NCBI GenBank assembly: GCA_032622095.1
Contig: CP136068.1
Location: 50,338,443 to 50,402,442 of the forward strand
Source: Siphonodentalium dalli
Taxonomy: Eukaryota; Mollusca; Scaphopoda; Gadilida; Siphonodentaliidae
Direction: 5' to 3'
Length of the DNA: 64,000 bases
The stretch's first letter is position 1, and every line of letters begins with the position of its first letter. A program made the position numbers and the translations under genes. The notes under the pieces are model-generated. The model saw only the letters and a list, made by a program, of their open reading frames with translations, ran no database searches and was not told the DNA's origin. Shown one piece after another: positions 8,387-59,757 of this stretch.

Positions 8387-8931
8387 TTTATTTTGATTTT
8401 ATGCGAAATTGGTCCCACATTTATAGTTTTATCTGAATTATGGCCATCTGTGCAGATTCTACCCATTATTCATGACAAGTCATAGTATAGGATTGAATTA
8501 TGTATACAAAAATGTACGACAACCCTCCATGTATAAAGACAATATCGGTTTCCTAGCAGTTAACCCTTGGCGGGTGATGTCGATTTTATGCGAAATTGGT
8601 CAAAATTTGAGAATTGATTCTGAATTATGGCCGAATGAACAGATTCTACCCACAGCTGATGATATTTCATGCTATAGGATCCCATTATGTATACAAAAGG
8701 GTACGACAGCCCTCCATGTGCAAAGACACTATCGGTTTGCTAGCAGTTAACCCTTAGCGATTTATTTTGATTTTATGCGAAATTGGTCCCACATTTATAG
8801 TTTTATCTGAATTATAGTCATCTGGGCAGATTCTACCCATAAATCATGACAAGTCATGCTATATGATCCAATTATGTATACATAAATGATGTCGATTTAA
8901 TACGAGATTTTGATATGAATTATGGCCAACT

Positions 8932-9562
8932 CGGGGGGGGGGTGGTCGGAAAAAAAATTCAGGCACGTATGGCATTTTTTCCCTTTCGATCATTTTTTGT
9001 ACCCGCCCACCCACCCCCACCGCCAATTTGTTTTCCGTTTTCGGCAGTTTTTTCCGACCATTTTTTTACACCCACCCCCCTTTTAACACTAAAACAGAGA
9101 TTTGCGGGGGGAAATTCACTGTAAAAAACTGTATATGAATTTCCGTGCATACTATTTATCATGGATGTTAACATGGACATGTAAATAGGAATGAGTCATT
9201 TTGAGGTCATTCGGCCAAAAAAACATGGCTGCCAGCGGCCATCTTGGATTTCAAAATTTGCAACAAAATACAACACGATAACTGGCTGCAGTCAGTTTAC
9301 CAGTTAGAATTACATTATTTCTCTCATTCAAAGTGGTTTTGATCTTGATATCTACTGAATCGAGAGCACATCAAAAACTTTGTCCGTCTTTCCTCTCCAG
9401 AGTTATCTCCCATGAAGCCCAACTCATTGCCAAAACATTAAAAAAACAAGCAGGAAATATTTTTGTTAGTTGCGGAAAAAATTGCTTGTTGGTGGCTTTG
9501 ACCACCCACCCACCCCGGCATACGTGTCGGAATTTTGTTTGCACCCTTCCCCCCCCCCCCCT
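8932..9562. mobile_element. Non-autonomous TIR element with perfect 8-bp duplication (hAT-like), G/C-run termini
   Basis: The 8-mer GGCCAACT flanks the insert exactly (8924-8931 and 9563-9570). Removing the insert and one copy recreates the array sequence seen intact elsewhere (TATGGCCAACTCAGCAG near 7620), so the empty site is known. The ends are imperfect inverted repeats of about 40 bp: a G-run, then a GTGG/GGTCGG block, A-run, ATTC, and CACGTATG; the right end mirrors this with a C-run. Inside, 9140-9300 is one monomer of the ~160-bp module found about 14 times at 39440-41640. The two overlapping frames at 8915-9180 and 9333-9572 span the element ends or low-complexity tracts and are not genes. 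Confidence 0.83.
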
Positions 9563-10836
9563 GGCCAACTGAGCAGATTCTACCTATAACTGATGACAAG
9601 TCATAGTATGCGACCCAATTATGTATACGAAAGATTACGACAGTCCTCGATGGGTAAATATCATAGGGTTTGCAATATGTTAACCATTTGCGGCTAGTGT
9701 AGATTTTATGCGAAATTGGTCCAAATTTGAGAATTTGACCTCAATTATGGCCAACTGAGAATATTCTATATACCCACAACTGATGGCACGTCGTGCTATA
9801 GGATCCAATTATGTATACAAAAAGGTACGACGATTTAATGCGAAATTGGTCCCACGTTTATAGTTTTATCTTAATTATGGCCATCTGTGCAGGTTCTACC
9901 CATAACTGATGACGAGTTATATTACAGGATCCAATTATGTATGCGAAAAGGTACGACAGCCTTTGATGGGTAAAGATCATATCGGTTTGGAAGCTATTAA
10001 GCCTTGGTGGTTGATGTAGATTTTATTCGAAATTTGTCCAAATTTGAGAATTTGACCTGAATTATAGCCATTATATTATATGAGCATGACTTGTCGTCAT
10101 GAGTTGTGGGTAGAATCTGCTCATTTGGTCATAATTCAGCTCAAATTTTCAAATTTCGAACCATTTCACATAAAATTTACATCATCCGCCCACGGTTAAC
10201 AGCGTGCAACCCGATATGATCTTTAGCAATGGAGGGCTGTCGTACCTCTCGAATACATAATTGCATCCTATACTATGACTTGTCATCAGTTATGGGTAGA
10301 ATCTGCCCAGTTGGCCATAATTCATGTCATATTCTCTAATTTGAACCAATTTCGCATAAAATCGACATCACCCGTCAAATAGTTTACTGATAGGAAACCG
10401 TTATTGTCATTACACATGGATAGCTGTCGTACCTTTTCGTATACATAATTGCATCCTATACTATGACTTGTCGTCAGTTATGGGTAGAATCTGCCCAGTT
10501 GGCCATAATTCATGTCAAATTCTCTAATTTGAACCAATTTCGCATAAAATCGACATCACCCGTCAAATAGTTAACCGATAGGAAACCGATATTGTCATTA
10601 CACATGGATGGCTGTCGTACCTTTTCGTATACATAATTGTATCCTATACTATGGTATATCATCAGTTATGGGTTGAATCTGCACAGATGGCCATAATTCA
10701 TGTCAAATTCTCTAATTTGAACCAATTTCGCATAAAATCGACACTGCGAAACATTGTCAATTTGTACATGTCTGCCCACGAAGTATAGTCGAAGAAGACA
10801 ATAATTTCCTCGGAAATTCCTGCAAATCTGAAACTG

Positions 10837-17723: not shown

Positions 17724-18970
17724 CATGCTCACGTATGGAGTGTCGAAACTGTTATCACCAGGTGATATTATTGAACAAATATTTAAAGGATATCTCGTTT
17801 TTTTAATTTTTAATTTATTCCAATTTAATTTAAAATTAAACATAAAATCGAAAAGATGGATGTACAAGGAGCATGGTTACAGGGTGGGATAACACGATTA
17901 CCGTTTATATATTTTTAAGGACGTGAATTTGGAGATATTCAGCCCAATATAGTTTGCAACAGAATCGCGAGTATGGTTCGAAAACCACCTTATATAGTTG
18001 CGGACAAGAACTACGCTCCTCACATGTGTCGATTGCGAGTTCTGTCGACATGTATATGTCGTGGGGTATATCAACATGGCAAATGCATTCGAACCGGCGT
18101 CATTTGCGCTTCAATTCTACTGATAAAACAGAGCAAATCTTAAGTGCGGTTTGAAATCCCCGGGTACACCGATGTATAGTTTAGTTCTGAATATTCTGAG
18201 TTTTGCGTCATATTTTCGGACAAGTGTCACGTTTGTCCAAAACGAACAAACGGCGGGTTGTCGACATATATATGTCGTGGGGTGTATCACCATTACATAG
18301 CGATTCGAACCGGCGTCATGTGCGCTTTTATTCTACCGATAAACACAGCAAAACGTAGGTGCGGTTTGAAACCCCCAGGTAGATTTGATGTGAATGTTCT
18401 GTGTTTTTCACTAAGAATTCATCAATCTGATCGAATTGAGTGTGCTCACGTATGGAGTGTCGACACTGTTATGACCAGGTGATATTATTGAACAAATATT
18501 TAAAGGATATCTCGTTTTTTTTATTTTAAATTTATTCAAATTTAATTTAAAATTAAACATAAAATCGAAAAGATGGATGTACAAGGAGCATGGTTACCTT
18601 CGCTCATATATACAGGGTGGAATAACACGGTTACCGTTTATATATTGCTAAGGACGTGAATTTGGAGATATTCAGCCCAATATAGTTTGCAACAGAATCG
18701 CGAGTATGGTTCGAAAACCACCTTAGTTGGGGACAAGAACTACGCTCCTCACATGTGTCGATTGCGAGTTCTGTCGACATGTATATGTTGTGGGGTATAT
18801 CACCATGGCAAATACATTCGAACCGGCGTCATTTGCACTTCAATTCTACTGAAAAACAGAGCAAATCTCAAGTGCGGTTTGAAACCCCCGGGTTCACCGA
18901 TGTATAGTTTAGTTCTGAGTTTTGCGTCTTATTTTCGGACAAGTGTCACGTTTGTCCAAAACGAACAAAA
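17724..18970 (+). repeat. 515/718-bp satellite, forward-oriented arm
   Basis: This arm has the same sequence as the large block at 20590-25172 but in the opposite orientation. The landmark TGCTCACGTATGGAGTGTCG occurs at about 17728 and again at about 18443, roughly one 718-bp unit apart, and a further partial unit runs to about 18970. A 74-codon frame at 18258-18482 matches the frame repeated in the reverse arm. The left edge abuts the inverted SGNH fragment. Confidence 0.88.
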
Positions 18971-19030
18971 GCCATGTGTTCGACCTAGGACTAGTATACA
19001 TACCATGTGTTCGACCTGGGACTAGTATAC
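18970..19030 (+). repeat. Two-copy short tandem repeat
   Basis: CCATGTGTTCGACCTAGGAC and TAGTATACATA are repeated once with one base changed (GACCTGGGAC). This gives about 43 bp per copy, directly at the end of the forward satellite arm. Confidence 0.85.
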
Positions 19031-20588
19031 TTATATACGTATAGTATATATTGGTCCCTGGTTCGACATGGAATAGAAAAGAGCGTTCTATAAGTGTATT
19101 CCTTATATTGTATTAATAAAGAGCGTTAAATTCATATCTGTCCGAAAAATTGAAAACATCTGGAAATCGCAAGTGTTTTTAAAATCATAGGAAGGCTGAA
19201 TACCAATATTTTGTATAATATGCAGTCAACACATCTTATACCTTCAAATTGACGTAGAGGAAATTTGGAAGCTCGATGAGCCATGTTCGTTTAAGGAGGT
19301 GTATTCATAATTCAAACAATTGTGTCGGAACAGTTAAAATGACAGAAAATTCCACTGCTTCTATTTCCCATATAAATTGAAAAGATAGTTATTTCGTTGA
19401 TTTGTAGAGATTCGAACTGGGTACTAAAACTTCTGGAGTAGGCAAAGCACTTTAACCACAAAGCTTGTATCAATTGTCTTAGAAATGTGACGACAACCTC
19501 ATGTCCGTTCAATTGTGGAAATATGCAGATATTGTTGAAATTATTGTAAAAACTACAATATTTGATTATTAGACTTACCTGATTTAAATACGAATTGCTG
19601 CTGTGCGTTGATGCGTAAATCTTCTATTTGAAGAGATCAAAATGTGCAGTCGTGCACAGATGGGATGCATGTATCTATGCCACTGATTAAAGAACTCCGA
19701 AGGTTTCAGATAGAGTTAATATATAGACAAACATAAACGCCCTTTATCACATCTCTCCCTCCCCTCTACCTCTCTCGAAAATCTGTGAACGGAGTATATG
19801 TGCGCATTTTCTACAAATATAGTACCATAATAGGCAATTATTATGATACTCTAAATGCAATATTTATGACCAAAAAATGTTGCTGAATTTATTTTTTTAT
19901 ATATTTTAAAATATTATTTTGCGAAAACCCGTGCCAATTAATTTTCTTAAATATGCGAGACTGAAAAACAAAGTGAATAATATTGTATCCATAAGTTGTT
20001 ATGGACTCTTTTTGGTCGGGGTTTTGTTTTCGTATTATTATTATAGCAGAAAAAGTCACATCGTCGTTGTACTGATTATAATTCATCCAAGCAAAGAGGG
20101 ACCCAATCTACAAAGAGACCGCCAAACAATATAGGCTGGTAATAGTCATAATTACATAACGAGTAGTTAGATGTCTGTCTCGATAATGTATGGGTTGTTC
20201 ATTGCCATCGATTACATAACGGGATTAAGTATCTCGATACTGTAGACGGACAGTACAAATACACAGGTTGTTGTTCGTTTTATTTTTGTGACTATAGAAT
20301 GCCTGAATTTAAATGAGATATACTGAGTAGATATAACGTTAAAAATATATCTTTAATAACACCATCAAAGATATGGAAAAGTTATGCATGTAATAAGTTT
20401 TTTCCAGGAGAGCAAAATGTATATGTTAGTGTTATTTCTGTTCTAGGTTCATGCTTTCGTTTTCAGAAATGTGTGAAGACGATGTAATAAAGAGCGTTTT
20501 CTAATATAATAATACTATCCTGTTCCATTGACGATTTTGTTTTCACGTGTATTGTCCTGATAATTGTCGTGTATCAATGGCGGCAATT
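19031..20588. other. Interval between the two inverted satellite arms
   Basis: There is no supported protein gene. AATAAAGAGCGTT cores (19118, 20486) belong to the dispersed family also seen near 15340. Near 20140-20240 the block CATAATTACATAACGAGTAG and CGATTACATAACGGGATTAA forms a loose duplication. A tRNA-like relic lies at 19393-19470. Frames at 19889-20134 overlap on both strands and lack domains. Confidence 0.5.
19393..19470 (-). other. tRNA-like relic (possible tRNA-derived SINE head)
   Basis: On the minus strand, AAGCTTTGTGGTTAAAGTGC resembles an A box with a TGGTTA D-loop. About 40 bases later CAGTTCGAATCTC resembles the B box GGTTCGAATCC. Spacing is right for a type 2 promoter, but the stems do not close well, so it is not a functional tRNA. 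In invertebrates such heads usually belong to old SINE copies. Confidence 0.4.
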
Positions 20589-23500
20589 ATTTGTCCTTCA
20601 CATGTGAGGAGCGTAGTTCTTGTCCGCAACTAAGGTGGTTTTCGAACCATACTCGCGATTCTGTTGCAAACAATATTGGGCTGAATATCTCCAAATTCAC
20701 GTCCTTGGCCATATATAAACGGCAATCGTGTTATCCCACCCTGTATATACGAGCGAAGGTAACCATGCTCCTTGTACATCCATCTTTTCGATTTTATGTT
20801 TAATTTTAAATTAAATTTGAATAAATTTAAAATAAAAAAAACGAGATATCCTTTAAATATTTGTTCAATAATATCTCCTGGTCATAACAGTGTCGACATT
20901 CCATACGTGAGCACACTCAATTCGGTCAGATTGATGAATTCTTAGTGTAAAACACCGAACATTCACATCAAGTCTACCCGGGGGTTTCAAACCGCACCTA
21001 CGTTTTGCTGTGTTTATCGGTAGAATAAAAGCGCACATGACGCCGGTTCGAATCGCTATGTAATGGTGATACACCCCACGACATATATATGTCGACAACC
21101 CGCAGTTTGTCCGTTTTGGACAAACGTGACACTTGTCCGAAAATAAGACGTAAAACTCAGAATATAGTCGCGATTCTGTTGCAAACTATATTGGGCTGAA
21201 TATCTCCAAATTCACGTCCTTGGCCATATATAAACGGCAATCGTGTTATCCCACCCTGTATAAACGAGCGAAGGTAAACATGCTCCTTGTACATCCATCT
21301 TTTCGATTTTATGTTTAATTTTAAATTAAATTTGAATAAATTTAAAATTAAAAAAACGAGATATCCTTTAAATATTTGTTCAATAATATCACCTGGTCAT
21401 AACAGTGTCGACATTCCATACGTGAGCACACACAATTCGATCAGATTGATGAATTCTTAGTGTAAAACACCGAACATTCACATCAAGTCTACCCGGGGGT
21501 TTCAAACCGCACCTAAGATTTGCTGTGTTTATCGGTAGAATAAAAGCGCATATGACGCCGGTTCGAATCGTTATGTAACGGTGATACACCCCACGACATA
21601 TATATGTCGACAACCCGCAGTTTGTTCGTTTTGGACAAACGTGACACTTGTCCGAAAATAAGACGTAAAACTCAGAATATTCACATCAAGTCTACCCGGG
21701 GGTTTCAAACCGCACCTAAGTTTTGCTGTGTTTATCGGTAGAATAAAAGCGCACATGACGCCGGTTCGAATCGCTATGTAATGGTGATACACCCCACGAC
21801 ATATATTTGTCGACAACCCGCCGTTTGTTCGTTTTGGACAAACGTGACACTTGTCCGAAAATAAGACGTAAAACTCAGAATATACTCGCGATTCTGTTGC
21901 AAACTATATTGGGCTGAATATCTCCAAATTCACGTCATTGGCCATATATAAACGGCAATCGTGTTATCCCACCCTGTATATACGAGCGAAAGTAACCATG
22001 CTCCTTGTACATCCATCTTTTCGATTTTATGTTTAATTTTAAATTAAATTTGAATAAATTTAAAATTAAAAAAACGAGATATCCTTTAAATATTTGTTCA
22101 ATAATATCACCTGGTCATAACAGTGTCGACATTCCATACGTGAGCACACTCAATTCGATCAGATTGATGAATTCTTAGTGTAAAACACCGAACATTCACA
22201 TCAAGTCTACCTGGGGGTTTCAAACCGTACCTACGTTTTGCTGTGTTTATCGGTAGAATAAAAGTGCACATGACGCCGGTTCGAATCGCTATGTAATGGT
22301 GATACACCCCACGACATATATATGTCGACAACCCGCAGTTTGTTCGTTTTGGACAAACGTGACACTTGTCCGAAAATAAGACGTAAAACTCAGAATATTC
22401 ACATCAAGTCTACTCGGGGGTTTCAAACCGCACCTAAGTTTTGCTGTGTTTATCGGTAGAATAAAAGCGCGCATGACGCCGGTTCGAATCGCTATGTAAT
22501 GGTGATACACCCCACGACATATATTTGTCGACAACCCGCAGTTTGTTCGTTTTGGACAAACGTGACACTTGTCCGAAAATAAGACGTAAAACTCAGAATA
22601 TAGTCGCGATTCTGTTGCAAACAATATTGGGCTGAATATCTCCAAATTCACGTCATTGGCCATATATAAACGGCAATCGTGGTATCCCACCCTGTGTATA
22701 CGAGCGAAGGTAACCATGCTCCTTGTACATCCATATTTTCGATTTTATGTTTAATTTTAAATTAAATTTGAATAAATTTAAAATTAAAAAAACGAGATAT
22801 CCTTTAAATATTTGTTCAATAATATCACCTGGTCATAACAGTGTCGACATTCCATACGTGAGCACACTCAATTCTGTCAGATTGATGAATTCTTAGTGTA
22901 AAACACCGAACATTCACATCAAGTCTACCCGGGGGTTTCAAACCGCACCTACGTTTTGCTGTGTTTATCGGTAGAATAAAAGCGCACATGACGCCGGTTC
23001 GAATCGCTATGTAATGGTGATACACCCCACGACATATATATGTCGACAACCCGCAGTTTGTTCGTTTTGGACAAACGTGACACTTGTCCGAAAATAAGAC
23101 GTAAAACTCAGAATATAGTCGCGATTCTGTTGCAAACTATATTGGGCTGAATATCTCCAAATTCACGTCCTTGGCCATATATAAACGGCAATCGTGTTAT
23201 CCCACCCTGTATATACGAGCGAAGGTAACCATGCTCCTTGTACATCCATCTTTTCGATTTTATGTTTAATTTTAAATTAAATTTGAATAAATTTAAAATA
23301 AAAAAAACGAGATATCCTTTAAATATTTGTTCAATAATATCTCCTGGTCATAACAGTGTCGACATTCCATACGTGAGCACACTCAATTCGGTCAGATTGA
23401 TGAATTCTTAGTGTAAAACACCGAACATTCACATCAAGTCTACCCGGGGGTTTCAAACCGCACCTACGTTTTGCTGTGTTTATCGGTAGAATAAAAGCGC

Positions 23501-25172
23501 ACATGACGCCGGTTCGAATCGCTATGTAATGGTGATACACCCCACGACATATATATGTCGACAACCCGCAGTTTGTTCGTTTTGGACAAACGTGACACTT
23601 GTCCGAAAATAAGACGTAAAACTCAGAATATAGTCGCGATTCTGTTGCAAACTATATTGGGCTGAATATCTCCAAATTCACGTCCTTGGCCATATATAAA
23701 CGGCAATCGTGTTATCCCACCCTGTATATACGAGCGAAGGTAACCATGCTCCTTGTACATCCATCTTTTCGATTTTATGTTTAATTTTAAATTAAATTTG
23801 AATAAATTTAAAATAAAAAAAACGAGATATCCTTTAAATATTTGTTCAATAATATCTCCTGGTCATAACAGTGTCGACATTCCATACGTGAGCACACTCA
23901 ATTCGGTCAGATTGATGAATTCTTAGTGTAAAACACCGAACATTCACATCAAGTCTACCCGGGGGTTTCAAACCGCACCTACGTTTTGCTGTGTTTATCG
24001 GTAGAATAAAAGCGCACATGACGCCGGTTCGAATCGCTATGTAATGGTGATACACCCCACGACATATATATGTCGACAACCCGCAGTTTGTTCGTTTTGG
24101 ACAAACGTGACACTTGTCCGAAAATAAGACGTAAAACTCAGAATATAGTCGCGATTCTGTTGCAAACTATATTGGGCTGAATATCTCCAAATTCACGTCC
24201 TTGGCCATATATAAACGGCAATCGTGTTATCCCACCCTGTATATACGAGCGAAGGTAACCGTGCTCCTTGTACATCCATCTTTTCGATTTTATGTTTAAT
24301 TTTAAATTAAATTTGAATAAATTTAAAATAAAAAAAACGAGATATCCTTTAAATATTTGTTCAATAATATCACCTGGTCATAACAGTGTCGACATTCCAT
24401 ACGTGAGCACACTCAAATCGATCAGATTGATGAATTCTTAGTGTAAAACACCGAACATTCACATCAAGTCTACCCGGGGGTTTCAAACCGCACCTAAGAT
24501 TTGCTGTGTTTATCGGTAGAATAAAAGCGCATATGACGCCGGTTCGAATCGCTATGTAATGGTGATACACCCCACGACATATATATGTCGACAACCCGCA
24601 GTTTGTTCGTTTTGGACAAACGTGACACTTGTCCGAAAATAAGACGTAAAACTCAGAATATTCACATCAAGTCTATACCCGGGGGTTTCAAACCGCACCT
24701 AACTTTTGCTGTGTTTATCGGTAGAATAAAAGCGCACATGACGCCGGTTCGAATCGCTATGTAATGGTGATACACCCCACGACATATATTTGTCGACAAC
24801 CCGCAGTTTGTTCGTTTTGGACAAACGTGACACTTGTCCGAAAATAAGACGTAAAACTCAGAATATAGTCGCGATTCTGTTGCAAACTATATTGGACTGA
24901 ATATCTCCAAATTCACGTCCTTGGCCATATATAAACGGCAATCGTGTTATCCCACCCTGTATATACGAGCGAAGGTAACCATGCTCCTTGTACATCCATC
25001 TTTTCGATTTTATGTTTAATTTTAAATTAAATTTGAATAAATTTAAAATAAAAAAAACGAGATATCCTTTAAATATTTGTTCAATAATATCACCTGGTCA
25101 TAACAGTGTCGACACTCCATACGTGAGCACACTCAATTCGATCAGATGTGATGAATTCTTAGTGTAAAACAC
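20588..25172 (-). repeat. 515/718-bp higher-order satellite, reverse-oriented arm
   Basis: Eight copies of the landmark CAGTGTCGACATTCCATACG (last copy ACTCC) lie at about 20889, 21404, 22122, 22840, 23355, 23870, 24385 and 25103. Spacings are 515, 718, 718, 515, 515, 515 and 718. The longer unit equals the 515-bp unit plus an internal ~203-bp duplication starting at the TCACATCAAGTCTACCCGGG block. Copies are very similar, implying recent homogenisation. Each unit carries a palindrome CGACATATATATGTCG (variant with TTTG in the duplicated part), an AT-rich TTAATTTTAAATTAAATTTG tract and GGTTCGAATCGC. The 74-77-codon frames on the minus strand differ between copies mostly by amino-acid changes, so I read them as by-products. 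Confidence 0.93.
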
Positions 25173-25560
25173 AGAACACTGATTCAGGCCGAAAGTCCGT
25201 CTGTCGATGAATCCGGAGGTTTTAAATCGCACCTAGGATGATTTGCTGAGTTTTTTCAGTTGACGTGAAGCCCAAAATGACGCCATATCGAATGCCGTTG
25301 TCCCAGTGATGTACCCCAGGACCTATACATGTCGACAGAACACGCCAGCGGCTAATGTAGGAGCGCTGTTCTCGTTAAAATGATGGCGTAAAACGTATTG
25401 TAGAATGTTTTTACTGACAAAAAATCTGAATGTTTAAACCAACGCGGCACCTAGGAATTGTTTCGTTTCTCCGTGTCGGTGGAATATGAATAGCCCAAAG
25501 ACATCATATACATATATATTATGCCTGTCGTCCGGTTCGTTGCACGGACCGCACATAATC
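25173..25560 (-). repeat. Decayed edge of the satellite array
   Basis: After 25172 identity drops sharply but the order of blocks persists: GGTTTTAAATCGCACCTAGG, TTTTTTCAGTTGACG, ATGACGCCATATCGAATGC, GTACCCCAGGACCTATACAT, GTCGACAGAAC. An even weaker repeat of the same blocks follows (GTTTAAACCAACGCGGCACC to CCGCACATAATC). These are one, then two, highly diverged copies of the ~203-bp sub-unit. A further scrap, CCCGGGGGTATCAAACCGCA, is at 25845. Confidence 0.75.
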
Positions 25561-37690: not shown

Positions 37691-38947
37691 TGATCAACCA
37701 GTCAATTATACCGCGGCTGACCACGCGTGGTACCACCTTGCATTAGCAGTTGGGCCGCATTCTCCATGCGGTCAGTGACCAATTTTGAATGTTGAATATA
37801 CCCGAAACAATTTAATTGAAATAATGTGTTGTGTTAGTGTACGGTTGTTGTTGAAAATAAAGATACCCACTAACGGTGTGGATTTGGTATCAATTGAAAT
37901 GTTGGTGATTAGAAATTGCACCGGATGTCGAAAGCTCACTGTCACATGTTTCGAAATTTCTAGATCAAACTTATATTTTCCTATATAAATACCAAATTTA
38001 ATATGGTGAGATATGACAAATTGTTTGCCATTGTGCTTATACATGTAAATGACTTCTCTGTTTTGTGACAACAATTCCACCCAGTGACTTTATGCAGCCT
38101 GTATGTTTTAGGACAGATTTGGATATTTTGATTGCCATTGGATCATAATGATTGCAGTGCTCATGATAACATTAATAGGCTGCACATGTACATGTATGGC
38201 AGTCATGAGAAAAATTAATGCAGTGTCCGGCGGTTGCAAGAAGATAATATGGCGGTAATTTACTTGGTTACAGATATTAAAAACATATTACTACATATTT
38301 AATACCAGCAGATATCGTATACTAGTATCAACTAAGGCTGTAACAATTTATCTTGAATCCATGCATTGTATTGCTATATGCTATCAAACCATGGTATAAA
38401 TGACAGCGGTTGATCAATTGGTTGTGGACTGCGGTATTACATACTGGTGGTCAACCTCGATAAGGCGGGTCGATTAATTAGGGCATAGCTGAATCGATTG
38501 GAAAGAGAATATACAGGTAGCTATCCGACTAAATGGATAATATTTTTCCGCCTAAGCATGCAGGCCTCCATTACAGAGAAATATACAAACATACTGTTAG
38601 CATGATCATATTCTGATCAGGTAAGATAGAAATTTTCCCAAATAAAATGAATAAATTAAGTTCTCTAAGAGCCTGTAATTATAATTGCTTAAAGATGCCC
38701 ATTTCGATTTGAAACTGTAAATCTACTGTAATAGTTCAGGTTTTCCAAACTGAATATATTTATTCAAATAAAATTGTTTTGCCGCCTCTCTGGTTGACAA
38801 GGATGCCTCTGTGGCTAAAGCGATGCTTTATTCGAGAGGAGAGGTTCCTATGTTTATGTAGAATAGAACGAGAATGAACAGATATGCATGCCAAATAATG
38901 CATTTATGCTGTAATGTGGTTAAGGACTGACAGCATATACAATTATA
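37691..38947. other. Interval without a supported gene
   Basis: Overlapping frames at 37772-38080 on both strands carry no recognisable motif. Near 38803-38830 TGCCTCTGTGGCTAAAGCGA resembles the A-box half of a tRNA-derived SINE, but no good B box follows. Confidence 0.4.
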
Positions 38948-39344
38948 CATGTATGTAGTGTTGAAACGAATAGGGTGTTTCGTATATAGTTGACTAATCG
39001 ACAGTCAAAAATCTAATCAAAGTCGACTAATCGACAACCCCCATTTCCATGGAAAACTTCCAATTTACTATGTCGCTATTGAGTACTGTAAAATAAATGC
39101 GAGATAACTGCAGTTCCCATTTTTCGTGGGTATTACGATCGGAAGACGGAAACCGGTACTAGTGACTATAGTGACAGAGAATACGCAATAGAGATTTTGG
39201 TATAATTATTGTATTCAATTAAACTGATGTGACGCGACACAAATTGAGCGAACATCAAAGGATTCGAGGCGCGGCTGCCGATATGGTTATTAGCTCAACT
39301 TTACTTTGTAAAGTTTGAGCTATTGCCATGGCTTTGTCGTCCGT

Positions 39345-39400
39345 CGTCCGTGTGTGCGTGTGTGCGTGTGAGGGTGTGTGCGTGTGTGCGTGTGTGCGTA
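39345..39400 (+). repeat. GTGTGCGTGT microsatellite
   Basis: GTCCGTCGTCCGTGTGTGCG is followed by TGTGTGCGTGTGAGGGTGTG and more of the same. It gives Cys/Val-rich and His/Thr-rich frames on the two strands that are not genes. Confidence 0.9.
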
Positions 39401-39439
39401 AGGCGTCAACAATACAGGCTACAGGTCGTACCTTTGATC

Positions 39440-41640
39440 GGATCATTATGAAATTTGTCATAGCTGTTGACATCAACATTTGTACCGGAATAATTAATTT
39501 TGGGGTCATTCGGAAAAAAACATGGCCGCCAGTGGCCATCTTAGATTTCAAAATTCAATCCATTAGCACGGGCTACAGGCCGTACTGTTCATCTGATCGT
39601 CATGAAATTTGTCATGGATGTTAATATTGACATGTCATGTCATTTTGACGTTATTCGGCCCAAAAACATGGCCGCCAGCAGCCATCTTGGATTTTACTCT
39701 TTGTATGACTAAATCCTTTAGCACGGGCTACAGGTCGTACCTTTAGTCTGATAATCATGAAATTTGTCATGGCTGTTGAAATTGGAATGTAGATGGGAAC
39801 GAGTCATTTTGGGGTCATTCAGACAAAAAAAATGGCCGCCAGTGACCATCTTTGTTTTCAAAATTCAATCCATTAGCACGGACCACAGGTCGTATTGTCT
39901 GTCTGATCATCATGAAATTTGTCATGGATGTTAATATTGACATGTAGATGGGAACGAGTCATTTTGGGGTCATTCTGCCCAAAAACATGGCCGCCAGCAG
40001 CCATCTTGGATTTTACTCTTTGTATGACTAAATCCTTTAGCACGGGCTACAGGTCGTACCTTTAGTCTGATCATCATAAAATTTGTTATGGATGTTAACA
40101 ATGACATGTAGATTGGAACGAGTCATTTTGGGGTCATTCGGCCCAAAAACATGGCCGCCAGCAGCCGTCTTGGATTTTACTCTTTGCATGACTAAATCCT
40201 TTAGCACGGGCTACAGGTCGTACTTATGGTCCGATCATCATAAAATTTGTCATGGCTGTTGAAATTGGAATGTAGATGGGAACGAGTCATTTTGGAGTCA
40301 TTCGGACAAAAAACATGGCCGCCAGTGGCCATCTTGCATTTCAAAATTCAATCCATTAGCACGGGCTACAGGTCGTACTGTTTGTCTGATCGTCATGAAA
40401 TTTGTCATGGATGTTAATATTGACATGTAGATGGGAAGCAGTAATTTTGGGGTCATTTGGCCCAAAAACATGGCCGCCAGCAGCCATCTTGGATTTTACT
40501 CTTTGTATGACTAAATTCTTTAGCACGGGATACAGATCGTACTTTTAGTCTGATCATCATAAAATTTGTCAAGAATGTTAAAAATTACATGTAGATGAGA
40601 ACGAGTCATTTTGGGGTCATTCGGCCAAAAAACATGGCCGCCAGCAGTCATCTTTGATTTTACTCTTTGTATGACTAAATCCTTTAGCACGGGCTACAGG
40701 TCGTACCTTTAGTCCGATCATCATAAAATTAGTCATGGATGTTAACAATGACATGTAGATGGGAACGAGTCATTTTTGGGTTATTCGGGCAAAAAACATG
40801 GCCCACAGCAGCCATCTTGGATTTTACTCTTTGTATGACTAAATCCTTTAGCACGGGCTACAGGTCGTACCTTTAGACTAAAAATCATGAAATTTGTCAT
40901 CGCTGTTGAAATTGGAATGTAGATGGGAATAAGTCATTTTGGGGACATTCGGACAAAAAACATGGCCGCCAGTGGCCATCTTTATTTTCAAAATTCAATC
41001 CATTAGCACGGGCCACAGGTCGCATTATTCGTCTGATCATCATGAAATTTGTCATGGATGTTAATATTGACATGTAGATGGGAACGAGTCATTTTGGGGT
41101 CATTCGGCCCAAAAACATGGCCGCCAGCAGCCATCTTGGATTTTACTCTTTGCATGACTAAATCCTTTAGCACGGGCTACAGGTCGTACCTTTGGCCTGA
41201 TCATCATAAAATTTGTCATGGCTGTTGAAATTGGAATGTAGATGGGAACGAGTCATTTTGGGGTCATTCGGACAGAAAACATGGCCGCCAGTGGCCATCT
41301 TGCATTTCAAAATTCAATCCATTAGCACGGGCTACAGGTCGTACTGTTTGTCTGATCGTCATGAAATTTGTCATGGATGTTAGTATTGACATGTAGATGG
41401 GAACGAGTAATTTTGGGGTCATTTGGCCCAAAAACATGGGCGCCAGTAGCCATCTTGGATTTTAATCTTTGTATGACTAAATTCTTTAGCACGGGCTGCA
41501 GGTCGTACCTTTAGTCTGATCATCATAAAATTTGGCATGGATGTTAACGATGACATGTAGATATGAACGACTCATTTTGGGGTCATTCGGCCGAAAACAT
41601 GGCCGCAGCAGCCATCTTGGATTTTACTTTTCTCTTCATG
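39440..41640 (+). repeat. ~14 copies of a ~160-bp tandem module
   Basis: The module reads CATTAGCACGGGCTACAGGT, CGTACCTTTAGTCTGATCAT, CATGAAATTTGTCATGG, a GTTAATATTGACATGTAGAT block, GGGAACGAGTCATTTTGGGG, TCATTCGGCC, AAAAACATGGCCGCCAGCAG, CCATCTTGG. The GGCCGCCAG core is near 39522, 39670, 39833, 39990, 40155, 40319, 40475, 40640, 40800, 40966, 41121, 41284, 41440 and 41602. Units alternate between two subtypes (TTTTACTCTTTGTATGACTA versus TTTCAAAATTCAATC after the core), suggesting higher-order growth. One lone module is inside the 8932-9562 element. Confidence 0.92.
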
Positions 41641-42033
41641 TCTGTTAACTAGTATTAGACATTCAACTTTCCACATTCCTAATCGCTCCATTGACTGTAA
41701 TACATTAAATTATTCCCTTTCCAAGTTGAGCTACAGTGTCATTGACACTTTCATATTTGATCGACCATCACACAACGATGTTCATTAGCGACATTGCCCA
41801 TATCATAACTGGCATTTGTGTATGTGATTCTGCTAAATAGCGTGGCATTTGTTTTAAATTTGAACACTATCCTTGCCAGTGTTGGTATATTGTATTGTAT
41901 CATTGTTCCCTTAAAACATAGCGCATGCTGAGATTAATATATTGAATGCAACTAATTGACTTGGGATTCTGGAGTCTACTTTGGTGAACAATTCGTCGAC
42001 TATTCAACAAATCGTTTCAACACTGCATATATG

Positions 42034-42645
42034 ATCCCCCAAGTCCCGACAGAAGAAATAAGTTAAAATAACATATACTAGTAAGAAAGTAAAATAGGCA
42101 TCTATGTGAATGTTTACATCTACTGCGCACTTGGAAGTCCCATTTCTATGTATGCAACATGTAACTAGTACGATAAATATCAACTTTATTCTTATTACAG
42201 CACAGCTGTAATTTTTTTAAGCGTTCTCAGAGGAATATGTTTTAAGATGTGTTCAGACGAGTCTGTTGCGTAGGTCCGTATGTTGTGTTGATCCATCTGT
42301 TGTCTGCATTAAGGCGTTAAGCACACAGCGGCGTACGTTGCGTTATAACGCAGAGCTTTCAATTAATAATTGGAGCTAATAAGTTCGAAATTGGAATAAA
42401 TGCAATATTGCATTCAAATCAATCTACAGGTATCTGTAATAAACTTTTTGCACAATAATGTCAAACATGTCAAATCCAAATAACTAAAACTAGATACTGC
42501 CATGAATACAATTTGATTTTCATTTGCTTCGAAGACAGCCACCGTCTTTTATCGATTGAAAACAAGAAACGTCATGACGAGTAACATATAAGGTATGCGT
42601 TAAGCTTTAAGTTGCATTGAAAATAGAATCTCTCCATTGTGTGAG
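42034..42645. other. Interval without a supported gene
   Basis: AT-rich sequence with no domain, splice pair or repeat terminus noted. Confidence 0.45.
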
Positions 42646-44029: not shown

Positions 44030-44906
44030 TCATATATATTTTGAAGACCTCTGTTTGTCTGTCTGTCTGTCTGTATGTTTGTCTGTCATTTATACAAATC
44101 TACGATTCTCGACCGATCGGGACGAAACTTGGTACGTGTGTGTAGTTTGACCAGGCGGTCGTCGTTGTCGTATTGGCGAGCCAGTGCGACGCCCGTGCAG
44201 CGCATGCGCAGACGTGATATCGGAAACGGGTGGAGCTATCGACTTGAAATTTGGTATGTGAATGTACCTTGTCCCAGATACGAATTTTATCGGGTCGCCG
44301 AGCCCGTGCGACGCCAGCTTCGCGCATGCGCAAACGAGATCTCGGAAACGGGTGGAGCTATCGACTTGAAATTTGGTATGTGAATGTATCTTGCCCCGGA
44401 TACGAATTTCATCGGGTCGCCGAGCCCGTGCGGCACCAGCTTCGCGCATGCGCAGACCAGATCTCGGAAACGGGTGGAGCTATCGACTTGAAATTTGGTA
44501 TGTGAATGTATCTTGCCCCGGATACGAATTTTATCGGGTCACCGAGTCTGTGCGACGCCAGCTTCGCGCATGCGCAGACGAGATCTCGGAAACGGGTGGA
44601 GCTATCGACTTGAAATTTGGTATGTGAATGTATCTTGCCCCGGATACGAATTTTATCGGGTCGCCGAGCCCGTGCGACGCCAGCTACGCGCATGCGCAAA
44701 CGAGATCTCGGAAACGGGTGGAGCTATCGACTTGAAATTTGGTATGTGAATGTATCTTTCCCCGGATAATAAATTTTATCGGGTCGCCGAGCCCGTGTGA
44801 CGACAGCTTCGCGCATGCGCAGACCAGATCTCGGAAACGGGTAGAGCTATCGACTTGAAATTTTGTTTTTGAATTGCCCGGACAACGACGGGCTCATCGG
44901 CTAGTC
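44030..44906 (+). mobile_element. Repeat element with 122-bp tandem interior, copy A
   Basis: The leader (TTTTGAAGACCTCTGTTTGT, CTGTCTGTCTGT, TACGATTCTCGACCGATCGG, GACGAAACTTGGTACG) is followed by about five 122-bp units: CGGAAACGGGTGGAGCTATC, GACTTGAAATTTGGTATGTG, CCCCGGATACGAATTTTATC, GGGTCGCCGAGCCCGTGCGA, CGCCAGCTTCGCGCATGCGC. A tail TTGCCCGGACAACGACGGGC, TCATCGGCTAG closes it. Because 122 is not a multiple of three, each frame is broken by phase, giving the series of 84-codon frames spaced 122 bp apart. They are not proteins. The 8-mer TCATATAT flanks the copy. Confidence 0.85.
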
Positions 44907-45530
44907 TCATATATATTTTTGAAGACCTCTGTTTGTCTGTCTGTATGTATGTTTGTCTGTCATTTATACAAATCTACGATTCTCGACCGATCGGGACGAA
45001 ACTTGGTACGTGTGTGTAGTTTGACCAGGCGGTGGACATTGTCGTATTGGCGAGCCCGTGCGGCGCCCGCTTCGCGCATGCGCAGACGAGATCTCGGAAA
45101 CGGGTGGAGCTATCGACTTGAAATTTGGTATGCCCCGGATACGAATTTTATCGGGTCACCGAGTCCGTGCGACGCCAGCTTCGCGCATGCGCAGACGAGA
45201 TCTCGGAAACCGGTGGAGCTATCGACTAGAAATTTGCTATGTGAATGTATCTTGCCCCGGATACGAATTTTATCGGGTCGCCGAGCCCGTGCGACGCCAG
45301 CTTCGCGCATGCGCAGACGAGATCTCGGAAACGGGTGGAGATATCGACTTGAAATTTGGTATGTGAATGTATCTTGCCCCGGATACGAATATTATCGGGT
45401 GGCCGAGCCCGTGTGACGCCAGCTTCGCGCATGCGCAGACCAGATCTCGGAAACGGGTAGAGCTATCGACTTGAAATTTGGTTTTTGAATTGCCCGGACA
45501 ACGTCGGGCTCATCGGTTAGTGTCATATAT
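44907..45530 (+). mobile_element. Repeat element with 122-bp tandem interior, copy B
   Basis: It has the same leader and tail as copy A but only about three and a half 122-bp units, one with an internal deletion (after GAAATTTGGTATG near 45130). TCATATAT lies before copy A (44030), between the copies (44907) and after copy B (45523). The array therefore grew by whole-element duplication or two insertions at one target. The frames at 44874-45432 are by-products. Confidence 0.83.
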
Positions 45531-49000: not shown

Positions 49001-49189
49001 TCAATAATTCGATTTTACAGAACACGGAAACAAATTGGTTATTTTGTCTCAAAATGGCGGCTAAAATGGTAAATATTGCCCTAGCATACATGTTCACTTA
49101 TAGCTAGGCTATTATATAAAATATGATATTGCTTCATTTGTCCTGGGTAGTGTATTGTCATACTGTGATAATAAACTTTAAGTAATGAA
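46076..49189. other. Long interval without a supported gene
   Basis: Overlapping plus frames at 46647-47364 are unusual for the region but carry no domain I know. One includes AGTCTATAGACTCC and TAGACTCC duplications. The minus frame at 48124-48390 begins MTTENGRLATNRIYCEFKYK, with no recognisable family. Short GATGGC/GGCGGC-containing blocks (48650-48690, 49050-49070) resemble dispersed repeats. No convincing splice pair was found. Confidence 0.35.
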
Positions 49190-50690
49190 GTAACTACACG
49201 TCAATGATGCTTTAATACAGAAAAGGTAAATAACGTAACTTCCCGTCAATGATGCTTTAATATAGAAATGGTTAATAAGGTATCTACACGTCAATGAAGC
49301 TTTAATGTAGAAAGGGTTAATAAGGTAACTACACGTCAATGATGCTTTAATATAGAAAGGGTAACTACACATCAATGATGCTTTAATATAGAAAGGGTTA
49401 ATAGGTAACTACACGTCAATTGTGCTTTAATATAGAAAAGGTTAATAATGCAACTACACGTAAATAATGCTTTAATATATAAAGGGTTAATGAGGTAACT
49501 ACACGTCAATGATGCTTTAATATAGAAATGGTTAATATGGTAACTACATGTACACGTCAATGGTGCTTGAATATAGAAAGGGTTAATAAGGTAACTACAC
49601 GTTACGGATGCTCTAGTATATAAAGGGTTAATAAGGTAACGACCCGTCAATGATGCTTTAATACAGAAAGGGTTAATAAGGTAACTACACGTCAATGATG
49701 CTTTAATATAGAAAGGGTTTATAGGGTAACTACACGTCAATGATGCTATAATACAGAAAGGGTTAATAAGGTAACTACACGTCAATGATGATTTAATATT
49801 GAACGGGTCAATAAGATAACTACACGTCAATGATGCTTTAATATATAAAGGGTTAATAGGGTAACCACACGTCAATGGTGCTATAATATAGAAAGGGTCA
49901 ATAAGATAACTACACGTCAATGATGCTTTAATACAGAAAGGGTTAATAAGGTAACTACACGTCAATGATGATTTAATATAGAAAGGGTTAATTATGTAAC
50001 TACACGTCAATGATACTTAGTATAGGAAGGGTTAATAATATAACTACACGTCAATGATACTTTAGTGTAGAAAGGGTTAATAAGGTAACTACCCGTCAAT
50101 GATGCTATAATATAGAAAGGGTGAACAGGCTAACTACACGTCAGTGATGCTATGATATAGAAAGGGTTAATAAGGTAACTTCCCATCAATTATGCTTCAA
50201 TACAGAAAGGGTTAATAAGGTATCGTAACTTCCCGTCAAAGATGCTTTAATATAGAAAGGGTTAATAAGGTAACTTCCCATCAATTATGCTATAATATAG
50301 AAAGGGTTAATAAGGTAACTTCCCATCAATTATGCTATAATATAGAAAGGGTTAACAGGGTAACTACACGTCAATGATGCTATAATATAGAAAGGGTTAA
50401 TAAGGTAACTTCCCATCAATTATGCTTCAACACAGAAAGGGTTAATAAGGTACCGTAACTTCCCGTCAAAGATGCTTTAATATAGAAAGGGTTAACAAGG
50501 TAACTACTCACCAATGATACTTAGTATAGAAATGGTTAATAAGGTAACTATCCGTCAATAATGCTTTAATATATAAATGGTTAATAAGGTAACTACACGT
50601 CAATGATGCTTTAATATAGAAAGGGTTAATAAGGTAACTACACGTCAATGATGCTTTAATATAGAAAGGGTTAATAAGGTAATAAGGTGC
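49190..50690. repeat. 45-bp minisatellite, ~33 copies
   Basis: The unit is AAGGTAACTACACGTCAATG, ATGCTTTAATATAGAAAGGG, TTAAT. Because 45 is divisible by three, a 212-codon minus-strand frame (49372-50010) made of a 15-residue repeat (LTCSYLINPFYIKAS) stays open. Length variants (TACCGTAACTTCCC, duplicated GTAC) and base changes give frequent amino-acid changes. Its reverse frames are equally open in places. I treat it as a non-coding minisatellite. Confidence 0.92.
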
Positions 50691-54629: not shown

Positions 54630-55677
54630 AAAACATGTCTGAGTACATGCTATTTAACATATCTGATGACATGCTATTTAACATGTCTGAGTACATGTTA
54701 TTTAACATGTCTGAGTACATGTTATTTAACATGTCTGATTACATGCTATTTAACATGTCTGATTACATGCTATTTAACATGTCTGATTACATGCTATTTA
54801 ACATGTCTGATTACATGCTATTTAACATGTCTGATTACATGCTATTTAACATGTCTGATTACATGCTATTTAACATGCCTGAGTACATGCTATTTAACAT
54901 GTCTGATTACATGCTATTTAATATGTCTGATTACATGCTATTTAACATGTCTGATTACATGCTATTTAACATGTCTGATTACATGCTATTTAACATGTCT
55001 GATTACATGCTATTTAACATGTCTGATTACATGCTATTTAACATGTCTGATTACATGCTATTTAACATGTCTGATTACATGCTATTTAACATGTCTGATT
55101 ACATGTTATTTAACATGTCTGATTACATGCTATTTAACATGTCTGAGTACATGCTATTTAACATGTCTGAGTACATGCTATTTAACATATCTAAGTACAT
55201 GCTATTTAACATGTCTGATTACATGCTATTTAACATGTCTGAGTACATGCTATTTAACATGTCTGAGTACATGCTATTTAACATGTCTGATTACATGCTA
55301 TTTAACATGTCTGATTACATGCTATTTAACATGTCTGATTACATGCTATTTAACATGTCTGATTCCATGCTATTTAACATGTCTGATTACATGCTATTTA
55401 ACATGTCTGAGTACATGCTATTTAAAACATGCTATTTAACATGTCTGATTACATGCTATTTAACATGTCTGATTACATGCTATTTAACATGTCTGATTAC
55501 ATGCTATTTAACATGTCTGATTACATGCTATTTAATATGTCTGATTACATGCTATTTAACATGTCTGATTACATGCTATTTAACATGTCTGATTACATGC
55601 TATTTAACATGTCTGATTACATGCTATTTAACATGTCTGATTACATGCTATTTAACATGTCTGATTACATGCTATTT
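54630..55677 (+). repeat. 24-bp minisatellite, ~44 copies
   Basis: The unit ACATGCTATTTAACATGTCT, GATT repeats with very high identity and rare GAGT, GAAT and single-base variants. Each unit contains the palindromes ACATGT and AACATGTT-like pairs. As 24 is divisible by three, long plus frames stay open at 54602-55798 (398 codons), 54666-55439 and 55429-55683 in more than one reading frame at once. A 7-bp-type slip near 55425 (TTTAAAACATGC) changes phase. Simultaneous openness in two frames argues against coding. Confidence 0.95.
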
Positions 55678-57453: not shown

Positions 57454-59733
57454 CTAGCATGAGGATGTCTTTAGTACGTTCGTTCTCTTGAGGTGGATCT
57501 TCTCCAGGAATTGTCTGCTGATGAGCTCGATCTTCTCCAGTTCTTGGATGCTTGGTGTGTAGATCTGTTTGATGTCTGCATGCGTTACGTCTAGGATGAG
57601 TTGTGTGAATGTATGTGGATCTTCGAGTGATATGGAGTCTTTCATTGTGTTGATTGTAGAGTAGATAATCTCTTTGGTATGGTATCTTATGTGCTCGTAG
57701 GTGGGGCATTCAGCGATGAAGTGTTGTCTCGTTTCAGGTGCAGTATTGCAGAGTTTGCATGTTGGGTTAATGTTGTGCTGGTTGAAGATGGCCTTGTTCG
57801 TCTGTAGTGTGTATGTCCCTGTCAGCAGTCTGGCTTTTATTTCAGCTCGGCTGGCGTCCTGTAGATTTGGTCTCACCGTGTTGTATACGTGGTGTGTCTT
57901 CTTGATGTTTACCGAGTGGGGGTTCAGATATTTGAGACTGGATTTTGTTTGTATCTCTTGCCTCCATCTCTCCTCTACCGTATAGGCTATCTTTGAGTTG
58001 AGGTCTTTCTTCCACTGTTCTTTTGGTGGGGGGTTGTTCAGCAGATGGTATGCCGAAGGTAGCCCATATATGTTCAAGATGTGGCGTACATTGGAGTACC
58101 AGCTATCGTCGTTGATGTTTCGGACCGCCAGTTGTCGTATCGCTATATCTCTCTCGGTACTGTCTTGGTGGCTTATGATGCGATGGAATAGATTGAGGGT
58201 ATTTCGATGGATGACTGTTGTGATTGGAATGATTCCCATGAGGGACAGCACTGCCACCGATGCTGTTCTGGTTGGGAAGTGCTGCATCTGACGAAGCATT
58301 CTGATTTGTTGTGATTCAAGTTTTTCCATTTGTGTGGTATTGATATGAAGCACTTCCAGTCCGTATGTAACTCTTGGGATGACGTAGAGCGACCAGAATT
58401 GGGCTTTCAGATGTTGTGTGACGCCGGTTTTCCCGTGTAGGCCTGCTCCCATGAGTGAGTAGGCACATCTTCTGCAGGAGTTTATCTTCGTGTCGACGTC
58501 TACGGAGTTGTCACGGTTCCTGTCGATGCCGAGATGTTTTACGACTGGAGGTGAGTTGATAGTGTTGTTGAATAGGGAGAGTGGATGTTGTGGTTCTGCT
58601 TTCTTCTGAAGGTATTTGATGACCGCACTCTTTTCCGGGTTAATCCCATACCGTTCTGAACTGGAGTAGGTTTCTACCTTAGTTAGCATTCGTTGCATGT
58701 CTGCGGAGTTGTGAGCCAGGAGAGCGATGTCGTCTGCACATGTAATGTGTGGGATTTGTATGGTCCCGATTGTTGCTCCGGTGTATTTGTCTTCTAGGTC
58801 CAATAGTAGAGGGTTGTTGAAGTGTTTATAATGTAATGAGGAGAGCACGCCTCCTTGCCGGACACCCTGTTGTATCTTGAAGCAGCCCGACAGCTGTCCG
58901 TTCCATTTTACCTTTGACGTGGCACCATCGTAAAGATTTTGTATGAGTGTCCATTCCTTTCCTCGAACGCCGTCATGGAAGAGTTTGCTTAGTAGGAGGT
59001 TGTGGTCGACTACATCAAATGCTTTTTGAGCATCTAGAGTGGTGAGAATCAGGTTTTTCTTCTTTATTTTAGCTTCGTTGATGGTTTCAGTGACAATGAG
59101 TGCTGCGTTGAGTGATGACCTGCCTTTGGTGAAGCCAGTTTGGAGTTCTGATTGTTTTCTTTCAAATACTGGGGCATGCCGCTTGCTTAGGACATGCTCC
59201 AGGGTCTTCAGTAAGGTTGTTGTGACTGTGATACCTCTATAATTTGAGGGGTTGTGAACATCGTTCTTTTTATGGACTGGTGTGATGAATCCTTCTTTCA
59301 GTATCTGTGGGATAGATCCATCACGTAGGAAACTATTCAGCAGGTCCGTCAAATACGGGGTGATGATGTTTTTCGCCATCTTCAGGTGTTCAGCTGTCAG
59401 TCCCATCACATCAGCAGCCTTGTTGTTGTTGAGACTCGCAATTGCAGCAGTGACTTCATCGGGAGTTATCACTTCGTACCGCTGCTCGGTTGAGCATAAT
59501 TGTTCGATGAAGGGCAAGTCCATTTCGATACGCGTCTTGTGCGCTTTATCAAAGTTCGGATTGTCCGAAGGAGTTGCTAGCCCAGCAAAGTGCTTCTTCC
59601 ATCCATCCAGGATGTCCTCGGAAGTTGATAGGGTGCTGTTGTCCACTATTAGTTCGGTTATAGGATCGGTTGAAGTTTTCCTTTGCATGCTGACTAGACG
59701 ATGGAATGATTTTGGGTCTCCAGACGCCGACAT
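57454..59733 (-). CDS. LINE reverse transcriptase with C-terminal zinc knuckle
   Basis: This 759-residue frame encodes an RNA-directed DNA polymerase that copies the LINE transcript into the chromosome. Motifs in order: NPSNYRGIT (161-169), LQTGFTKGRS (197-206), catalytic motif A LDAQKAFDVVDH (233-244, Asp234), QGVRQGGVLSS (289-299), and motif C CADD (332-335), where most LINEs have YADD or FADD. YGINPEKS (362-369) and VKHLGI (398-403) follow as motifs D and E. Near the end, C659-x2-C662 with H671 and C676 form a CCHC-type knuckle. The ATG is only the first one after an in-frame stop (59758-59760). True coding continues upstream. The Cys in motif C could lower activity. The clade (I/Nimb, R1/Jockey or CR1-like) is not settled; no RNase H is seen. 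Confidence 0.9.
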   Translation of the reverse strand: MSASGDPKSFHRLVSMQRKTSTDPITELIVDNSTLSTSEDILDGWKKHFAGLATPSDNPNFDKAHKTRIEMDLPFIEQLCSTEQRYEVITPDEVTAAIASLNNNKAADVMGLTAEHLKMAKNIITPYLTDLLNSFLRDGSIPQILKEGFITPVHKKNDVHNPSNYRGITVTTTLLKTLEHVLSKRHAPVFERKQSELQTGFTKGRSSLNAALIVTETINEAKIKKKNLILTTLDAQKAFDVVDHNLLLSKLFHDGVRGKEWTLIQNLYDGATSKVKWNGQLSGCFKIQQGVRQGGVLSSLHYKHFNNPLLLDLEDKYTGATIGTIQIPHITCADDIALLAHNSADMQRMLTKVETYSSSERYGINPEKSAVIKYLQKKAEPQHPLSLFNNTINSPPVVKHLGIDRNRDNSVDVDTKINSCRRCAYSLMGAGLHGKTGVTQHLKAQFWSLYVIPRVTYGLEVLHINTTQMEKLESQQIRMLRQMQHFPTRTASVAVLSLMGIIPITTVIHRNTLNLFHRIISHQDSTERDIAIRQLAVRNINDDSWYSNVRHILNIYGLPSAYHLLNNPPPKEQWKKDLNSKIAYTVEERWRQEIQTKSSLKYLNPHSVNIKKTHHVYNTVRPNLQDASRAEIKARLLTGTYTLQTNKAIFNQHNINPTCKLCNTAPETRQHFIAECPTYEHIRYHTKEIIYSTINTMKDSISLEDPHTFTQLILDVTHADIKQIYTPSIQELEKIELISRQFLEKIHLKRTNVLKTSSC

Positions 59734-59757
59734 GATTTCCTCGAGACATTCGCGTCG

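Follow-up and report, generated by a model that had tools for sequence, protein, structure and literature searches.

The closest known counterparts of the locus considered here include the HINEs of the oyster Crassostrea gigas, where 11 Cg_HINE elements share one order of parts, namely a subTIR, a complementary IR, a microsatellite, central repeats, a 3′ subTIR and a palindrome (PMC7492417). In the parts of that study that describe the elements, the 5′ subTIR measures 11-12 bp, the microsatellites include GTCY, GTCC and GTCK, and the central repeats are mostly 140-180 bp long; the arrays hold 3.6 units on average and 29.3 at most, and the right flanks are about 60 bp (PMC7492417). The same study mentions satellite-carrying oyster HINEs, some of them inside fragments of other transposons, for which the data are not shown there. 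A closely similar plan is described for DINE-1/HINE elements, with a subTIR of 12-15 bp, an IR with its 5′ side lying within the subTIR, a microsatellite, central repeats and a 3′ stem-loop, and in the mite HINEs treated in the same source the distance to the 3′ terminus is 38-60 bp for the 3′ subTIR and 8-35 bp for the palindrome (PMC4067079). The BIV160/Cg170/pearl repeats of bivalves have a monomer near 160 bp and a reported link to Helitron-type elements (PMC5139131).

The stretch of DNA that was analysed (the window, 64 kb with 38% GC and no Ns) contains a tandem array of 14 units at 39409-41640 on the forward strand. The unit lengths are 153-164 bp and the last unit continues into unique sequence. 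TRF places the array at 39417-41628 with a period of 164 and 13.8 copies, and detects further periods of 319 and 483, and splitting the array at a conserved anchor gives the count of 14; the two counts agree with the first-pass annotation, which had proposed about 14 modules. The main unit lengths are 155 and 164 bp, neither of which is divisible by three. By eye, the units fall into a subtype A of 155 bp and subtypes B and C of 164 bp, the first unit (m1) is a divergent A, and the order along the array is A B A B C A B C C A B A B C. When the units are clustered by average linkage, m1 separates first, followed by the division between A (m3, m6, m10, m12) and the rest and then by m14, and B and C are not resolved; the mean identity between B and C is 0.861, and the means within the two subtypes are 0.927 and 0.879. 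The alternation of two module subtypes proposed earlier does not hold strictly in this order, and growth by dimers, which had been derived from it, is too simple given the unit order and the clustering. The closest pairs of units are m4/m11, m6/m12 and m7/m13, each at 96%, and an exact 107-bp match recurs within the array at a lag of 966 bp, which suggests that the duplicated blocks spanned several units and that dimers were not the sole size.

The array lies between two sets of ends. The inner set starts with a 5′ subTIR, TAGCTCAACTT, at 39291-39301 (forward strand), which is a perfect inverted match of 11 bp to the 3′ subTIR AAGTTGAGCTA at 41723-41733, the latter being the sole exact occurrence of that string on the forward strand of the window. 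The 5′ subTIR also pairs with its own inverted partner, forming a predicted hairpin of 32 nt at 39291-39322 on the forward strand; folded as DNA, the region 39286-39330 reaches -10 kcal/mol with a z of -5.86, and none of 200 shuffles is equally stable. The hairpin is followed by GTCGTCCGTCGTCC and then a (CGTGTGTG)n microsatellite (39336-39399, forward strand; TRF reports 39349-39399), and GTCGTCCGTC of this region occurs once in the window. At the other side of the array the 3′ subTIR lies 83-95 bp beyond the array end, and a palindrome, AGTGTCATTGACACT, with a stem of 6 bp and a loop of 3 nt, begins one base after it (41735-41749, forward strand). This palindrome occurs once in the window and is weak when taken alone, since the fold of 41715-41760 has a z of -1.93 and is equalled in stability by 11 of 200 shuffles. 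Read from left to right, the locus thus has a subTIR, an IR, a microsatellite, central repeats, a subTIR and a palindrome. The proposed HINE, a non-autonomous Helentron-type element, would extend over 39288-41756 on the forward strand, with termini placed from the anatomy: the 5′ end was set 3 nt before the subTIR, and the 3′ end was put provisionally at 41756, the actual terminus being expected at about 41750-41785. The provisional end leaves 23 bp between the 3′ subTIR and the terminus, and the mite-HINE distances point to about 41771-41784. TT steps are present near both proposed ends, and the window offers no empty-site paralogue with which they could be compared.

The likeness of this structure to the oyster elements, as far as these are described in the source, is one of anatomy. 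The 11-bp subTIR with its IR, the GTCC-type start of the microsatellite, the units of 155-164 bp, the palindrome and the probable nesting have counterparts there, whereas the array holds 14 units against an average of 3.6 in Cg_HINE and the right flank is longer (PMC7492417). Similarly, the subTIR, nested IR, microsatellite, central repeats and 3′ stem-loop correspond to the plan given for DINE-1/HINE, with the differences that the subTIR is 11 bp instead of 12-15 bp and that the termini are placed here from anatomy (PMC4067079). In the case of the BIV160/Cg170/pearl repeats, the source describes a unit size near 160 bp that is also found here (PMC5139131). Kinship with BIV160/Cg170, judged on primers only, was considered and rejected: against one unit bivF matches at best 13/25 positions and bivR 11/21, scores that are equalled by 425/500 and 457/500 shuffled units respectively, and bivF has no match in the 64-kb window at up to 3 mismatches.

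Outside the inner set, the locus is framed by a second pair of ends. The 5′ TIR TAGTGTTGAAACGA at 38956-38969 (forward strand) and the 3′ TIR at 42012-42025 (reverse strand; TCGTTTCAACACTG on the forward strand) form an inverted match at 13/14 positions. They are bordered by CATGTATG at 38948-38955 and CATATATG at 42026-42033, the two copies of the putative target-site duplication, which match at 7/8 positions. These flanks are nearly palindromic, and the inverted match extends through them to 22 nt. A 14-bp subterminal repeat, GTYGAMTARTCGAC, is found by pattern search at both outer ends, with two sites on the left (GTTGACTAATCGAC at 38989-39002 and GTCGACTAATCGAC at 39022-39035, both on the forward strand) and one inverted site on the right (GTTGAATAGTCGAC at 41995-42008, reverse strand). 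With one mismatch allowed, GTYGAMTARTCGAC has 4 matches in 64 kb, which are the three subterminal sites with one counted on both strands; none of 100 shuffles reaches 4, a flattering figure, as the pattern was derived from the counted sites. Non-autonomous hAT-type elements carry an 8-bp target duplication, a short TIR and subterminal repeats, and the outer structure shares all three. The motif of its ends is, we presume, that of the hAT superfamily, an assignment made from the ends. It differs from the usual plan in the single mismatch of its duplication, and it is without a transposase: 38956-42025 has no stop-to-stop frame of at least 120 aa. On the strength of the TIRs, the 7/8 target duplication and the subterminal repeats at both ends, a putative non-autonomous hAT-type element, which would cover 38956-42025 without the HINE and so measure about 0.6 kb, is well supported as the outer layer.

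The two sets of ends were compared with dinucleotide-shuffled or shuffled flanks. For the outer set, 5000 dinucleotide-shuffled flank pairs were made from 38700-39400 on the left and 41640-42300 on the right. In the real flanks a 13/14 inverted match is found at 7 pairs of positions, one of which also has a 7/8 flank match; some 13/14 inverted match is found in 487/5000 shuffled pairs, and its combination with a 7/8 flank match in 1/5000. The hAT-style ends and the 7/8 flanks, both already noted in the first-pass annotation, are confirmed. Its statement that the array is enclosed in a hAT element holds for the outer layer, but a tighter inverted pair, 39291-39301 with 41723-41733, encloses the array as well. 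For the inner set, the flanks used were 38970-39409 and 41640-42012; of 5000 shuffled pairs, 233 gave some 11-bp inverted pair, none gave such a pair together with the IR, and accordingly none had the pair, the IR and the palindrome combined. The thresholds applied were near the published lower limits and were chosen after the pair had been seen.

A whole-window control was run on both strands with a similar HINE grammar, in which the palindrome stem was 5 instead of 6. The array locus was matched once, and many overlapping matches were obtained between 17943 and 24176; on 40 shuffled windows the mean was 0.15 matches, with at least one match in 5/40. The matches at 17943-24176, which were not accepted as HINEs, and those in shuffled windows indicate that the grammar is not specific by itself in DNA rich in inverted repeats. 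Around the array the repeat finder reports five inverted pairs, the outer and the inner pair included, of which the longest is 27 nt, so the match at the array is not due to a long inverted repeat. In the region 17726-25337 long repeats in direct and inverted orientation are clustered; they reach about 1.8 kb, with 81-99% identity among the 40 longest alignments listed, and are accompanied by tandem pairs of 203-205 bp at 21462, 22180 and 24443.

Sequence resembling the array unit occurs at three places in the window, two of which lie within elements with an 8-bp TSD. Besides the array itself, one of these lies in a 631-bp element at 8932-9562, whose ends are an inverted match of about 79% over 39 bp, partly in G-rich low-complexity sequence. 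It is flanked by perfect copies of the 8-bp duplication GGCCAACT at 8924-8931 and 9563-9570, and nearby units of the 188-bp repeat, among them 10336-10249 and 10524-10437, are uninterrupted paralogues with a single GGCCAACT, so that the element is a genuine insertion. The repeats that provide these empty-site paralogues form a tandem region in both orientations around the element, at 8395-10743. The earlier claim of a lone module inside this element stands as regards the element and its perfect duplication, but the module is partial: the stretch 9148-9262 (forward strand) aligns to each of the 14 array units with 80-88% identity over 98-115 bp of the 164-bp unit. Of the five exact HINE-end strings none is found within the element. 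A weak hairpin after the partial unit (fold 9265-9330, z -1.85, equalled in stability by 8/200 shuffles) was not accepted as a HINE palindrome. The second element would best be regarded as a hAT-like insertion in its own right, in which a related unit is present as a decayed fragment, and this fragment may have come from a HINE insertion with subsequent decay, or from capture. The third place, at 1238-1289, is a weak match of 52 bp whose resemblance to the 3′ portion of the unit amounts to 79-84%.

The two sets of ends, and the succession of parts between them, can be read directly at the locus, and from this anatomy, at one locus, we infer two elements, one inside the other. Our preferred explanation, which we hold to be probably correct, is that the array forms the central repeats of a HINE, and that this HINE entered a non-autonomous hAT-type element, about 0.6 kb long, that was already in place. 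The HINE part of this explanation is carried by the close perfect 11-bp pair, by the hairpin that the subTIR forms with its own partner, by the published order of parts and by the finding that no shuffle pair among 5000 had an inverted pair together with an IR. The nesting is to be expected, since the oyster study, in the passage concerned, already mentions HINEs inside fragments of other transposons (PMC7492417). Against the explanation stand its dependence on one locus, the loose termini, a palindrome that is weak alone, the longer right flank, the unspecific grammar and the post hoc thresholds. When five HINE-end strings were sought in the window, four occurred at the array only and the fifth, the 10-mer AGCTCAACTT, also at 945 on the reverse strand; neither a second copy of the HINE ends nor an empty-site paralogue of the HINE was found in the 64-kb window.

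All the parts described lie between the outer ends, and another element with an 8-bp TSD contains a related, partial unit. Both observations would fit an array native to the hAT-type element and moved by cut and paste, with the inner repeats as incidental features. We consider this unlikely, however, because a subTIR, an IR, a microsatellite and a palindrome in HINE order would be left unexplained and because the exact HINE-end strings are absent from the second element. The opposite simplification, in which a HINE lies in ordinary DNA and the hAT-like outer ends match each other in inverted orientation by chance, aided by a near-palindromic AT-rich flank, draws on the imperfect 7/8 flanks, themselves nearly palindromic, and on the frequency with which shuffled pairs yield some 13/14 inverted match (487/5000). 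It is also consistent with the window, in which neither a second copy of the outer ends nor an empty-site paralogue of the outer element was found, the best other match being 26 bp at 88%. Chance of this kind is nevertheless quite improbable in our judgement, given that ends and flank match coincide in 1/5000 shuffle pairs only and that subterminal repeats are present at both ends.

A reading that needs no transposon, in which the array would be a simple dispersed satellite block, either amplified where it lies or spread via extrachromosomal circles, would accord with the block duplication among units, of which the exact match of 107 bp repeated after 966 bp is the mark, as in locally growing satellites. 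The ordered transposon features in both flanks make this highly improbable. A further proposal concerns the hAT-type elements themselves, which could be a second recurrent vehicle of HINE-born repeats if the composite moves as a whole and single units pass between hAT elements. We regard this as unlikely; if it were true, one tandem-repeat family would owe its spread to rolling-circle and cut-and-paste elements alike.

Under the explanation of a HINE nested in a hAT-type element, the locus would have arisen in two steps. In the first, a hAT-type element about 0.6 kb long would have inserted, with a hAT transposase making the outer 8-bp duplication, and a HINE of about 2.5 kb would have entered this element as a rolling-circle copy produced by Helentron Rep/helicase. 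The hAT insertion is likely to be the earlier and the HINE the later event. The number of units could have changed via unequal exchange or slippage, in blocks of one to several units, before or after the insertion. The broader idea of the first-pass annotation, that DNA transposons carry and seed a tandem-repeat family, can be retained for the carrying, if the term is taken in a broad sense, but the likely carrier is the inner HINE and not the hAT element. As the inner HINE is the most likely carrier, the array locus gives no support for hAT elements as the seeding agent.

Searches beyond the locus add little to its interpretation. A search of the whole window against Rfam at gathering scores returned no matches and so lends no support to an origin of the unit from a known RNA gene. 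Exact patterns of the module, the HINE 5′ end and the hAT end have no match in viral contigs, and exact patterns of the module have none in prokaryote contigs, results that say little for animal-like sequence. Strings of the unit sequence sought in the literature gave single-string matches only, by title in papers on other subjects. Elsewhere in the window several other repeats were observed. At 44177-45490 an array with a period of about 122 bp and a higher one of 244 bp is a possible satellite-like block of a different family, an array with a 45-bp period occupies 49183-50682 in 33 copies, and another with a 24-bp period occupies 54632-55677 in about 44 copies, within two overlapping open frames of the forward strand. 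The Pfam search, which covered 6 of the 21 listed ORFs in the window, assigned RVT_1 (E 1.5e-29) to a long open frame at 57454-59757 on the reverse strand, with zf-RVT just under the cut-off, and this frame resembles that of a non-LTR retrotransposon. Together with the abundance of tandem repeats, the frame points to DNA of eukaryotic origin.

What does the locus mean for the way in which satellite-like repeats spread? Most likely it is an ordinary nested arrangement and does not represent a novel route to satellite DNA, and taken alone it leaves the knowledge of satellite origins unchanged. With 14 units the array is long in comparison with the average of 3.6 given for the oyster elements in the source and lies below their maximum of 29.3 (PMC7492417). 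Given further copies, the array could help to time the turnover of units relative to insertion. The locus provides a further example, with a readable anatomy, of a Helentron-type element that carries satellite-like repeats.
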